Virus record (IMG/VR): IMGVR_UViG_3300030104_003298
Coordinates: 441 to 40,212 of that record
Reading direction: 5' to 3' (one strand)
DNA length: 39,772 nucleotides
Source of the DNA: a virus
Shown: piece after piece, positions 2,496-29,962 of the stretch
Numbering within the stretch: the stretch's first letter is position 1
Layout: every line of letters starts with the position of its first letter
The notes under the pieces: model-generated
What the model saw: only the letters and a program-made list of their open reading frames with translations
Databases searched by the model: none
What the model was told of the DNA's origin: nothing
Position numbers and translations under genes: made by a program

Positions 2496-3068
2496 ATGTG
2501 GATTTCTAAGATTCCAGCGATTGTCGCGGCGGGTACAACTATTACTTGGCGTGATGACGACACGACTGTTCCATTTGATCAACACGCTACAAGCACTGAC
2601 TGGACCCTGAAGTATTACCTAAGAAGTTCAGTCGCTGGCGCTCATACGGCAACAGCAACGGCATATAACAGCGGTTGGCAAGTCACGATCTCAGCAACCG
2701 ATAGCGCTGGTTTTGTTGAAGGTGATTGGAGTTATGAAGCTGTAATTAGTAAAGGCAGTGAAAAGTTTAGACTAGGCGAAGGGACGATTAAGGTTAAACA
2801 AAGCCTGAGTTATACAGGAACAACGCCGGGAGTAATAGAGACAAGATCACAAAACAAGATCGACCGCGACAATATCAAAGCAGCGTTAAGGAAATTCCAA
2901 GATGGAATGCAAGAATATTCAATCGGCGGACGTACTTTTAAGCGCATCAATCGGAATGATTTAGCAGCCGAGTTAGATCGATTAAACGCAATTGTTATGC
3001 GTGAAGATATAGCGGAAAAGGTTTCGCAGGGCTTAGGCAATCCAACTAGATTTTTTGTTCGTTTTTAA
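2496..3068 (+). CDS. gpW-like head-tail joining protein with extra N-terminal domain
   Basis: It lies between large terminase and portal, the place of lambda W. Residues from about 120 to the end (DRDNIKAALRKFQDGM, then SIGGRTFKRINRNDLAAELD, ending TRFFVRF) resemble gpW-type joining proteins. The first ~100 residues are instead a beta-rich segment (TDWTLKYYLRSS...GWQVTISATDSAGF...GDWSYEAVIS) like the Ig-like or BppU-type domains of phage decoration and fibre proteins. The fusion is unusual because gpW is normally only about 70 aa. The ATG at 2496 follows a TGAGGA ribosome site at rather short spacing; a TTG at 2484 in the same frame is an alternative. Three bases separate it from the portal gene. 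Confidence 0.7.
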   Translation: MWISKIPAIVAAGTTITWRDDDTTVPFDQHATSTDWTLKYYLRSSVAGAHTATATAYNSGWQVTISATDSAGFVEGDWSYEAVISKGSEKFRLGEGTIKVKQSLSYTGTTPGVIETRSQNKIDRDNIKAALRKFQDGMQEYSIGGRTFKRINRNDLAAELDRLNAIVMREDIAEKVSQGLGNPTRFFVRF

Positions 3069-3070
3069 TC

Positions 3071-4618
3071 ATGGGATTTTTTAATCAAGCTATTTCCGAC
3101 GTTTTTAAATCTGAGCCGGAAGTTAAAACAATGCCTAAGCAACTAAAGCGAAGTTATGAAGGCGGGAGGATCAGTCGTTATAACTCCCGATGGATGGCAT
3201 CAGCCAATAGCGCTGATACTGAATTACTTAGTAGCTTAGATAAATTAACAGCAAGGTCACGGCAACTATGTAGGGATAATTCTTATTGTCGTCAAGGTCA
3301 AAGGAGTTTTGCGTTAAACGTGATCGGGCAGGGCGTGAGGATGCAAGCGCAGACCCGTATGAAACGCGGGAGCAAATTAGATAAGAAAACGAATGACTTA
3401 ATAGAAGGAACATTTAAAGATTGGTGTCGATACGATTCTTGTTCGGCAAACGGTCGTGATTGTTTTGCAGATATTCAGTTAATTATTGCCAAGCAATTAT
3501 TCGAGGCGGGTGAGATTTTCGTGAGGTTAATAAAGAAACCTTTCGGGCGTTCATCAATACCTCTAGCGGTGGAATTGTTGGAGCCAGAGCAATTAGACAG
3601 CACCTACAACGGCGGCACAAAAAGTAAAAACAATACTTGGCGAATGGGAATAGAACGCGACCAATTTAATCGCGCCGTTCGTTATGCGTTTTATAAAAAG
3701 CACCCCGGCGATGATTCGTTCCCGACTCCAATGGGAATTAAAAGGCACATGCTTATTAATGCTGATGAAATAATTCATTTATTCGTGACAGATCGCGCCA
3801 GTCAGACAAGAGGCGTTTCGATGCTTGCGCCTGCGTTGGAAGCAATGCACCAATTGTCAGGTATGACCGAGGCAGTACTGATAAAGCAAAGGGCTAGTAG
3901 CGCTTTAATGGCGTTTGTTCAAACGAATGATCCTGACGGTTTAATAGGTGATGGTGAAGTCTATGAGAACGAAAGAGTTTCAACCTTTGAACCCGGAAAA
4001 TTTGTTTATCTAAATCAAAACGAGTCGATCCATGTTCCTGATCTAGATACTCCAGCGGGAGAATTTGAACCATTTAATAAAATTATTTTGCGTTCGTTAG
4101 CTAGTGGATGTGGGGTTTCTTACGAGTCAGTGAGTAAAGATTTCAGTGAAACTAATTACAGTTCTTCGCGTTTAAGTCTGTTGGAAGATAGGGATCACTA
4201 CAAGATGATTCAGAAGTATTTAGAAGAAAGATTTTTACAGCCTTTGTTTGATTTGTGGTTAGATCTTGCGGTGTTAAGTGGAAATTTAGATTTAGGTAAT
4301 TACGATTTAGATCCTGATAAATATAAAAAAGTACGTTGGTTATTTAGAGGTTGGGCCTATGTCAATCCTAAAGATGAGGTGCTCGCTGCAAAAGAGGCAG
4401 TAAAAGCAGGCTTTAAAACTCAAGCACAAGTTATAAGCGAAATGGGATCAGGAGATATAGAGGAGTTTTTACCAGCTCGGAAAAATGAAGTTGAGCAACA
4501 AGAGCAATTAGGTTTAATGTTTGATACGACTGTTAGCAGTATAAGCAATACGCCTAAACAGCAAAGTGAAGGTAATATAGATAAAAATGACTCACAGCCC
4601 AATGGAAAAGAAACGTGA
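3071..4618 (+). CDS. Portal protein (lambda family)
   Basis: Forms the dodecameric DNA channel at one capsid vertex. The 515-aa length and features fit the lambda gpB portal family: an N-terminal SRYNSRWMASANSADTELLSSLDKLTARSRQL segment, LLEPEQLDSTYNGG in the wing, HLFVTDRASQTRGVSMLAPAL in the stem region, and YESVSKDFSETNYSSSRLSLLEDRDHYK, which is strongly typical of this family. It lies directly after the gpW-like gene and its 3' end overlaps the capsid precursor gene by 32 bases, consistent with one head operon. Confidence 0.95.
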   Translation: MGFFNQAISDVFKSEPEVKTMPKQLKRSYEGGRISRYNSRWMASANSADTELLSSLDKLTARSRQLCRDNSYCRQGQRSFALNVIGQGVRMQAQTRMKRGSKLDKKTNDLIEGTFKDWCRYDSCSANGRDCFADIQLIIAKQLFEAGEIFVRLIKKPFGRSSIPLAVELLEPEQLDSTYNGGTKSKNNTWRMGIERDQFNRAVRYAFYKKHPGDDSFPTPMGIKRHMLINADEIIHLFVTDRASQTRGVSMLAPALEAMHQLSGMTEAVLIKQRASSALMAFVQTNDPDGLIGDGEVYENERVSTFEPGKFVYLNQNESIHVPDLDTPAGEFEPFNKIILRSLASGCGVSYESVSKDFSETNYSSSRLSLLEDRDHYKMIQKYLEERFLQPLFDLWLDLAVLSGNLDLGNYDLDPDKYKKVRWLFRGWAYVNPKDEVLAAKEAVKAGFKTQAQVISEMGSGDIEEFLPARKNEVEQQEQLGLMFDTTVSSISNTPKQQSEGNIDKNDSQPNGKET

Positions 4619-27914: not shown

Positions 27915-28093
27915 ATGAAGTTATAGCCGCCTGTATTGGCGCAGTAGTCTCTATTTTCTTATTCACCCTTAGCATTATTGTTAACAGGAAAGATAAGGAC
28001 GTAAGGGCTTTATTTAAAAAAGTCGATCTATTACAGCAGAAAGTAGCAGCGCTTGAAGGGACACAAAGAAACAAGAATTGGCGTAATCGGTAG
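27911..28093 (+). CDS. Small membrane protein with coiled coil (possible lysis accessory)
   Basis: 60 aa. An N-terminal membrane helix (VIAACIGAVVSIFLFTLSIIV, residues 4-24) is followed by a basic turn and a short coiled coil (VRALFKKVDLLQQKVAALEG). The anchor-plus-coiled-coil layout is seen in holin-accessory and spanin-like proteins, so a lysis role is possible but unproven. Coupled to the upstream gene by a 4-base overlap. Confidence 0.55.
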   Translation: MNEVIAACIGAVVSIFLFTLSIIVNRKDKDVRALFKKVDLLQQKVAALEGTQRNKNWRNR

Positions 28094-28098
28094 ACACT

Positions 28099-28135
28099 AA
28101 AAAACCCCCGGCGTCCTCTACGAAACCAGAGGTTT
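28099..28135 (-). terminator. Possible leftward terminator
   Basis: Read on the - strand, a CCTCT/AGAGG hairpin with an 8-base loop is followed by CGCCGGGGG and six T. The T-tract is about 10 bases from the stem, so this is not canonical. A run of six C (minus strand) about 40 bases upstream could pair with the GGGGG to form a longer structure. Confidence 0.35.
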
Positions 28136-28195
28136 AATAGCTTCCATTTACTTAACTGCTAATACTTGAAAAGGGGGGTAAACAACAAAATTATT

Positions 28196-28802: not shown

Positions 28803-29537
28803 CTAATTAGGAACAGTAAGTTTTTCTAAATCTAAAACCCTTTGCAGTGGTATCGCTGCAACTTGAGGAACGATGGAATTTCCTAGCGCTTTAGTTCTGT
28901 GTATCCAATTGGATAGCCCATCGCCTCCTCTAACCAACACGGGTTCACTTTTGTATTGTCGCCAATTTGGGTTAAGACGTCGGGCAGGACTTTTGGGCCA
29001 TATAGTTCGTTCCATTTCTTTGAGCTTCGGCCTTTGTAGTCCCTCGCGACTGGGGTAGGCAACAAGCCAAAATCTGTCTCTTTTATGGCAGGCGCCCAAA
29101 GCACTTGCCGGAATGCAGACATATTCCGAGTTATACCCTGCCTCGGCCAAGTTTCCGAGAACGATTCCAAGTCCTCTAGAAAGGATTGCTGACACGTTTT
29201 CCAAGACGACGTATCGCGGCTGTAATAAGCAAATGACTCTATAGAGTTCGTACCACAAACCAGATTCTGAAGTCTCTGTGATCCCTTCGCGCTTGCCCGC
29301 GTTTGAGATTGATTGGCAAGGAAATCCCCCACAAATAACGTCTGCTGAATATGGTTCTGGGTTGTAGGTTCTGATGTCATGGAATTGTTCGACATGGGGC
29401 CAATGCTTTTTTAATACCTTTTGACAAAATGGTTCACATTCGACAAATGCAACTGTTTTAAATCCTCCTACTAATTTTTCGGCGCTATAGCTAAAACCGC
29501 CTATACCGCTAAAGGTGTCGATAAGTCTAAGCGTCAT
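28803..29537 (-). CDS. dcm: DNA cytosine-C5 methyltransferase
   Basis: 244 aa. It transfers a methyl group from SAM to cytosine in a DNA target. Motif I is DTFSGIGGFS (residues 7-16), motif IV is GGFPCQS with catalytic C74, motif VI is ENV (113-115), motif VIII region is GACHKRDRFWLVAY (149-161), and motif X is KALGNSIVPQ near the C-terminus. The target-recognition region between VIII and X is very short. With no restriction endonuclease nearby, it is probably an orphan enzyme that protects phage DNA from host restriction or affects packaging or regulation. It overlaps rusA by 4 bases and contains a second long frame (next entry). Confidence 0.93.
   Translation of the reverse strand: MTLRLIDTFSGIGGFSYSAEKLVGGFKTVAFVECEPFCQKVLKKHWPHVEQFHDIRTYNPEPYSADVICGGFPCQSISNAGKREGITETSESGLWYELYRVICLLQPRYVVLENVSAILSRGLGIVLGNLAEAGYNSEYVCIPASALGACHKRDRFWLVAYPSREGLQRPKLKEMERTIWPKSPARRLNPNWRQYKSEPVLVRGGDGLSNWIHRTKALGNSIVPQVAAIPLQRVLDLEKLTVPN
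28883..29395 (-). CDS. Overprinted ORF inside dcm, phage methylase-linked family
   Basis: 170 aa, same strand as dcm, +1 frame, wholly inside it. It carries family-like signatures: SFAYYSRDTSSWKTCQQSFL, LESFSETWPRQGITRN, FGLLPTPVARDYKGR and, at the end, NPCWLEEAMGYPIGYTELKR. I recall proteins with the order RDTSSWKT, (S)ETWPR.GM.RNG, GLLPTP.A.D.KG, LNP.(W/F)VE.(L/M)MG(F/Y)P.GWT encoded as separate genes beside phage dcm genes. Here the LLPTP motif is read from the same bases as Dcm's HKRDRFWLVAYP, and MGYPIGYTELK from the same bases as GDGLSNWIHRTKAL. No Shine-Dalgarno precedes 29395, so expression is unproven. Confidence 0.6.
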   Translation of the reverse strand: MSNNSMTSEPTTQNHIQQTLFVGDFLANQSQTRASAKGSQRLQNLVCGTNSIESFAYYSRDTSSWKTCQQSFLEDLESFSETWPRQGITRNMSAFRQVLWAPAIKETDFGLLPTPVARDYKGRSSKKWNELYGPKVLPDVLTQIGDNTKVNPCWLEEAMGYPIGYTELKR

Positions 29538-29962
29538 GGTTGACTACTTAGCGTGATAGATGCCCCCGGACTTTCCCCTGTTTCGCAATATCTTTTACTT
29601 GCTATCCAATGAATAATCTGTGAATCATCCCTTACTAATCCTGATTGTTGTATCGAGTCACCTATTGATCTAATTAATTTATCCGTATCACTTTTAGTCG
29701 TTTTATATCTAGGGGCAGCAGGCCTCAATGTCCCTTTAGTTCCGTAATGGGATTTAGGACGCATAAAGCGAAACTCACAAGAGACACTAAACGCACAATC
29801 AATATTCCAATCCTTTGGTTTAGCTGCTATTAAATAAGTCATCACATCCTGTCGCCAAGATTTCAATTCTTTATCGTTGCTATACATCACCCCAAAGGCA
29901 GTACGTTTTAAACTGCCCTGCGCTACAGGTACACCAACAACATCAACACTAATTATTTTCAT
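29534..29962 (-). CDS. rusA: RusA-family Holliday junction resolvase
   Basis: 142 aa. It cuts Holliday junctions during phage recombination and replication. The conserved acidic residues sit in KSDTDKLIRSIGDSI (D92, D94) and GLVRDDSQI (D113), with the same spacing as D70, D72 and D91 of E. coli RusA. The N-terminal VPVAQGSLKR and a central RFMRPKSHYG are also usual. A GGAGG ribosome site lies 4 bases before the ATG. It works with the RecB-like nuclease and the ERF protein encoded elsewhere in this genome. Confidence 0.92.
   Translation of the reverse strand: MKIISVDVVGVPVAQGSLKRTAFGVMYSNDKELKSWRQDVMTYLIAAKPKDWNIDCAFSVSCEFRFMRPKSHYGTKGTLRPAAPRYKTTKSDTDKLIRSIGDSIQQSGLVRDDSQIIHWIASKRYCETGESPGASITLSSQP

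Follow-up and report, generated by a model that had tools for sequence, protein, structure and literature searches.

The cytosine methyltransferase (Dcm) region of the DNA studied here very probably encodes a heterodimeric DNA (cytosine-5) methyltransferase whose two subunits are read from overlapping frames of the same bases, an arrangement of the M.EcoHK31I kind. We call the product of the Dcm frame alpha and that of the +1 frame beta. Motif IX of the enzyme lies in beta, the structural model of alpha contains no small domain, and the nesting of one frame within the other is conserved. The window, that is, the whole stretch of DNA analysed, is a 39.8-kb part of a 40,212-base virus record and belongs to a lambda-like siphophage with an integrase.

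Two overlapping frames in a phage methyltransferase gene

Alpha is a C5-methyltransferase of 244 aa, and the 170-aa frame that the first-pass annotation had reported inside it, on the same strand and in the +1 phase, is indeed present, counting its 170 codons from the first ATG (Table 1). The peptide pairs quoted there from the two frames were also accurate: HKRDRFWLVAYP in the Dcm frame against KETDFGLLPTP in the other, and GDGLSNWIHRTKAL against MGYPIGYTELK. Codons of beta are composed as (d2,d3,d1') of the alpha codons, each third position of Dcm becoming a second position in the +1 frame. A megablast search of the window gene against phages returned no match. Elsewhere in the window, positions 28080-28160 (ggcgtaatcggtagacac) look like the 5' portion of a tRNA-Leu and may be left over from an attachment site; ARAGORN called no tRNA anywhere in the window.

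Table 1. Features of the dual-frame methyltransferase region and its neighbour (positions in the window).
Feature	Position	Strand	Evidence
Alpha, C5-methyltransferase catalytic (large) domain, motifs I-VIII and X	28803..29537	-	PF00145, phrog_363, AlphaFold2, M.HhaI alignment
Alpha motif I (DTFSGIGGF, AdoMet binding)	29493..29519	-	sequence; F9, G11, G13, G14 invariant in alignment A6
Alpha motif IV (GGFPCQ, catalytic Cys74)	29313..29330	-	sequence; C74 invariant in alignment A6
Alpha motif VI (ENV)	29193..29201	-	sequence; E113, N114 invariant in alignment A6
Alpha motif VIII (HKRDRFWLV)	29061..29087	-	sequence; R153, R155 invariant in alignment A6
Alpha linker at the usual target-recognition domain site, predicted disordered	28893..29051	-	pLDDT; dNN/dSN 1.02 in relatives
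Alpha motif X (KALGNSIVPQVAAIPLQRVLDL)	28815..28892	-	sequence; G219, N220 nearly invariant (A6); helix 224-241 pLDDT about 94
Beta, 170 codons from first ATG; stop TAG inside alpha's ALG codons	28883..29395	-	phrog_1008, shuffle tests, selection ratios
Beta from probable start, the second ATG (MTSEPTTQNHIQ...)	28883..29380	-	start inferred; ATG recurs in marine clade
Beta region with one LLPTPVARDYKG element, proposed target-recognition region	28952..29080	-	dNN/dNS 0.53 (0.45-0.62) in relatives
Beta motif IX (VNPCWLEEAMGYPIGYTEL)	28892..28948	-	hhalign; C-terminal helix pLDDT about 80-86
RusA-like Holliday junction resolvase, neighbour of alpha	29534..29962	-	PF05866 E 1e-13, phrog_140 E 1e-24

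Alpha is incomplete as a canonical single chain

Alpha matches the methyltransferase profile PF00145 with an E value of 7e-38 (131 bits, gathering cut-off 22), the match spanning only positions 2-182 of the 324 in the profile, and it matches phrog_363 at E 1e-63. The AlphaFold2 model of alpha has a mean pLDDT of 85, with residues 1-160 at about 87-98 and the motif X helix at about 94, and 216 of the 327 residues of M.HhaI could be aligned to it (Z 24.7). Roughly residues 162-219, where the small domain of a C5-methyltransferase normally sits, are disordered in this model (pLDDT about 43-64). Since the profile match stops at 182 of 324, the linker is disordered and motif IX is found in the other frame, alpha is incomplete as a single chain: between motifs VIII and X it has neither a target-recognition domain nor motif IX.

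Beta carries the missing motif IX

The +1 product had been read at first pass as a phage protein family, and a search of the 170-aa translation against phage proteins bore this out, phrog_1008 matching at E 2.9e-22 over residues 5-127; phrog_26627 matched weakly over residues 146-169. We equate phrog_1008 with the beta family (96 of 96 aligned beta members match it); its label is 'DNA methyltransferase', and the overlapping dcm frame goes unmentioned. Beta matched nothing in Pfam and nothing meaningful in NCBIfam, its profile gave no relevant match among PDB sequences, and an HNH match was sought in 96 beta proteins and found in 0.

In an hhalign comparison, the C-terminus of beta aligned with the motif IX segment found in single-frame Dcms of actinophages (probability 94%, E 1.1e-7). 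The first-pass annotation had recognised neither the precedent of M.EcoHK31I nor the presence in the +1 product of the motif IX that alpha lacks. Between motifs VIII and IX, beta proteins of relatives hold 0-6 LPTP elements, about 33 aa apart. The segment of beta lying over motifs IV-VIII resembles no methyltransferase segment; as it has no Dcm-like counterpart, the earlier proposal that the frame arose by overprinting of dcm fits. Modelled alone with AlphaFold2, beta gives a poor model (pLDDT 60), whose low confidence may fit an obligate partner but would also allow disorder.

Both frames are under purifying selection

The selection test used 61 independent pairs of relatives, with changes classed by their effect in each frame. 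For beta, dNN/dNS was 0.62 (0.56-0.69) inside the overlap versus 0.99 (0.87-1.12) in Dcm codons outside it, and dSN/dSS was 0.44 (0.38-0.53) inside versus 0.86 (0.68-1.15) outside. The +2 frame showed no such signal, with dNN/dNS of about 1.5 both inside and outside the overlap. Both frames are under purifying selection, which for the +1 product is confined to the overlap. A test of this kind, for a conserved +1 ORF and for selection within the overlap, had been suggested at first pass, and the constraint appears where that suggestion placed it. The earlier view that both products are still made fits this evidence, from which we infer that beta is translated.

Constraint is distributed unevenly along the overlap. 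Across motifs IV-VIII the constraint is strong on alpha (dNN/dSN 0.31) and mild on beta, whose dNN/dNS there is 0.77 (0.70-0.85). Past motif VIII, in the linker, dNN/dNS shows constraint on beta at 0.53 (0.45-0.62), and dNN/dSN, at 1.02 (0.94-1.11), shows none on alpha. The dNS/dSS of alpha in this linker is about 0.57, on few sites, so that alpha is weakly constrained there and not certainly free. Both frames are constrained over the last 24 codons of beta (0.52 and 0.61), and the N-terminal extension of beta found in Pseudomonas and Acinetobacter gave dNN/dNS of 0.82 (0.61-1.10). The combination of weak constraint on alpha with clear constraint on beta between motifs VIII and IX suggests that beta holds the target-recognition region.

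The nested frame is widespread and occurs in three architectures

A scan of the genome collection, for which alignment A1 was too diverse, found 71 loci in Proteobacteria, Firmicutes, Verrucomicrobia, Desulfovibrio relatives, Nitrospirota, Elusimicrobia, Parcubacteria and others. The family profile recovered the +1 frame in nearly all 71, within the Dcm ORF and in phase +1, with one exception. Of 246 Enterobacteriaceae species genomes, 19 have matches to phrog_1008, nested in phase +1 wherever this was checked; the same nesting is seen in phages and plasmids of Leptospira, Nostoc, Acinetobacter, Bacteroides, Stenotrophomonas and mycobacteria. In all, the nested family is present in phages, prophages and plasmids of at least ten phyla.

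The first-pass annotation had described the family as a separate neighbour of dcm. This description did not hold: wherever the position could be checked, the frame was nested in the Dcm ORF in phase +1, and no free-standing beta homologue was found among the phages, plasmids, viral contigs and genomes examined. The one exception in the genome collection (L196), a candidate for a free-standing beta, was rejected as a deletion remnant with C-terminal parts of both frames.

A quick unrooted tree of the catalytic domain places the canonical Dcms, except for one long-branched fragment, in a single group with good support. One beta-positive row lies at the base of the canonical group and the other beta-positive genes fall outside it, a topology that would be compatible with a single origin of the beta-bearing Dcms.

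Three architectures can be distinguished. Type 1, to which the window belongs, has motifs I-VIII and X in alpha and motif IX in beta. The alpha of type 2 (Rabbitrun, Magnar, Darolandstone and B22) is full-length, with its own motif IX; in the type 2 actinophage Dcms with their own IX and X (L007, L047, L055 and L056), the +1 frame beats all synonymous shuffles. Type 3, seen in Arthrobacter phage ArV1 and Mycobacterium phage Krili, has an alpha that ends after motif VIII and a beta with IX and X. The ArV1 (L008:906-2376) and Krili (L046:1122-2073) loci each consist of two overlapping genes, both annotated as methylase, in an M.AquI-like split.

Several further observations concern individual loci. 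The near-identical mycobacteriophages XFactor and OwlsT2W (L002 and L003) have opposite frames annotated at one and the same locus, beta in one phage and alpha in the other. An E. coli PT62 prophage apparently has two dual-frame cytosine methyltransferases about 2 kb apart (L276:1-525 and 2497-3234), and in this example PGAP annotates alpha only. A second, diverged subfamily of dual-frame Dcms, with the sequence HFFAGIGGW... and with beta ending in LNPAxSxWLMGFPxEW, is common in Enterobacteriaceae genomes (L277-L302). In the metagenomic relatives L036, L037, L040 and L041, the alpha frame carries a frameshift, stop or deletion, either real or an assembly error.

These data bear on a different reading of the overlap, in which overprinting of dcm gave rise to a distinct protein, beta, with a regulatory or counter-defence role, and alpha works alone with a minimal small domain. 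The beta segment over motifs IV-VIII, unlike that of any methyltransferase, and the lack of Pfam or relevant PDB sequence matches would suit such a protein. However, the C-terminus of beta corresponds to a canonical motif IX segment, the alpha model is without a folded small domain, and in ArV1 and Krili it is beta that has motifs IX and X while alpha has neither; M.EcoHK31I provides a precedent for motifs divided between two polypeptides, and beta was not found apart from Dcm in the loci checked. We therefore regard a separate protein as unlikely and favour two subunits of one methyltransferase.

Beta probably starts within alpha

The second ATG of beta (29380; MTSEP...) recurs across the marine clade as MTS, MTTS or MKTS, and the first ATG does not. 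As the first ATG is absent in several relatives, the second is the likely conserved start, and the start has been corrected to 29380. The first-pass annotation had noted no clear ribosome site, in agreement with our finding that no Shine-Dalgarno-like sequence is seen upstream of the likely beta start in the window; such a sequence precedes the likely start in 8 of 138 loci. An ATG near the beta core is present in 138 of 154 cases versus 118 in shuffles, which is only a modest excess. Neither the Shine-Dalgarno count nor the conservation of start codons is convincing as proof of internal initiation.

Internal initiation of beta nevertheless fits better than frameshifting, which had been put forward at first pass. 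According to the latter idea, a programmed frameshift near motif VIII would join alpha to beta as one chain, with no separate start for beta. It would agree with the position of the useful parts of beta downstream of motif VIII, with the lack of a good ribosome-binding site, and with the change of frame of the C-terminal part between lineages in types 2 and 3. The +1 frame is, however, constrained well upstream of any useful shift point, in the segment before motif VIII where its dNN/dNS is given above, and constraint so far upstream would be needless for a shift downstream. Moreover, type 1 would require a return to the alpha frame for motif X, and M.EcoHK31I is made as two polypeptides. On these grounds a frameshift is quite unlikely, and separate initiation of beta within alpha is preferred.

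The +1 frame exceeds chance and shadow conservation

Given the (d2,d3,d1') relation between the frames, conserved Dcm residues alone make the other frame look conserved, and a control is needed. In the window gene, 0.15% of within-gene synonymous shuffles left the +1 frame as open as it is, and 0 of 2000 codon resamplings from the phage's codon usage did so. Each of 21 related Dcm genes has an open +1 frame, of 175-278 codons, and this openness was never reproduced by codon resampling (2000 each) and was reached in 0 to 1% of synonymous shuffles.

The beta profile was scored at 138 loci outside its seed list, although a few, among them L009 from the record that contains the window, nearly duplicate a seed. 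The mean score was 176 bits for the real genes versus 58 bits for synonymous shuffles, which puts the share of shadow in the raw similarity at roughly one third. The real score was reached by any of 20 shuffles in 0 of the 138 loci, and openness of the +1 frame had P < 0.05 in 120 of the 138. As a further control, 58 unrelated canonical Dcm genes from bacterial genomes gave beta scores near zero (median -1), and their open-frame probabilities were spread evenly from 0.02 to 1, as expected by chance; nine beta-positive genes were clearly separate from them. The claim made at first pass, that matches along the frame are hard to explain by chance, is upheld by both the shuffles and the canonical controls.

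A non-coding shadow, forced on the +1 frame by Dcm codons and then annotated by gene callers, is highly improbable, for although shuffled Dcm genes still score about 58 bits against the beta profile, the scores of the real genes are three times as high and were matched by shuffles at none of the 138 loci, openness is significant at most of them, the selection ratios differ inside and outside the overlap, and the 58 canonical Dcms have no such frame. A +1 frame that merely shadows Dcm conservation was accordingly rejected on the shuffles, the selection ratios and the canonical genes.

A proposed two-subunit enzyme and its implications

In the mechanism that we propose, alpha would supply the large domain, with AdoMet binding, the catalytic Cys and motif X. 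Beta, translated separately from an internal start within alpha, would supply the small domain, that is, motif IX and a putative target-recognition region with the LPTP elements. The two would bind as a heterodimer and then methylate DNA. Because neither frame is a complete canonical enzyme, both products should have to assemble for methylation to take place.

Parts of the first-pass interpretation survive in this scheme, namely two families sharing the same bases and a +1 frame under selection; the separate neighbour does not, and frameshifting is disfavoured. Beyond the window, we lean towards the view that a widespread class of cytosine methyltransferases of phages and prophages, in at least ten phyla, moved its target-recognition region and motif IX into the +1 frame of the gene for its catalytic subunit, perhaps once and long ago, and that Pfam, NCBIfam and PGAP have missed it. 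The modular LPTP elements would then change specificity where alpha is nearly free to vary.

To our knowledge, it is rare outside small viruses for two frames on one strand to overlap at length with strong evidence that selection acts on each. In the present case, two halves of one enzyme apparently share bases, in an arrangement that appears old and common, as in the 19 Enterobacteriaceae species genomes mentioned above. With no model for beta in Pfam or NCBIfam, and with PGAP annotating alpha only in the E. coli example, many prophage 'DNA cytosine methyltransferases' are probably half-enzymes in the records. Cloning or recoding such genes from their annotation would destroy the partner subunit. 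The model also predicts which of the two subunits sets DNA specificity.

Comparison with known systems

A literature search, partial in coverage, for accounts of such an overlap at the level of a family returned nothing beyond mentions of M.EcoHK31I and M.AquI, plus the ShiLan domain, which is unrelated. The kind of enzyme is already known; within this partial coverage, its breadth, the missing annotation and the placing of target recognition in an overlapping frame appear, provisionally, to be unreported.

The ShiLan domain is an out-of-frame HNH endonuclease that overlaps phage methylase genes (PMC11855218). It shares with beta the property of being an out-of-frame overlapping protein inside a phage methylase gene. 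However, the ShiLan type is a homing insertion that brings along an HNH protein, whereas beta is no insertion, has no HNH match and overlaps catalytic motifs.

M.AquI alpha/beta (CYCGRG) is a C5-methyltransferase split in the variable region between motifs VIII and IX (PMC3404938). Its small subunit holds motif X together with IX, whereas in the window motif X is in alpha; the type 3 phages ArV1 and Krili, with motif X beside IX in beta, are closer to M.AquI than the window is.

The nearest likeness is to M.EcoHK31I, whose small-subunit gene of 176 codons reportedly lies, in another frame, within a large-subunit gene of 309 codons. A nested small gene in another frame, in phase +1, is what the window would have in common with that reported layout. 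M.EcoHK31I (YGGCCR; Lee, Kam and Shaw 1995, cited in PMC3404938) is a two-polypeptide C5-methyltransferase; its large polypeptide holds motifs I-VIII and X, its small one holds motif IX, and its predicted target-recognition domain has been assigned to the large subunit (PMC3404938). The window shares this split of motifs, the likeness being one of motif layout. M.EcoHK31I is part of a restriction-modification system, whereas the window gene belongs to a phage and has no recognised restriction enzyme beside it. Finally, the predicted target recognition of M.EcoHK31I is placed in the large subunit, whereas selection and structure in the window favour beta, the small subunit, for this role.
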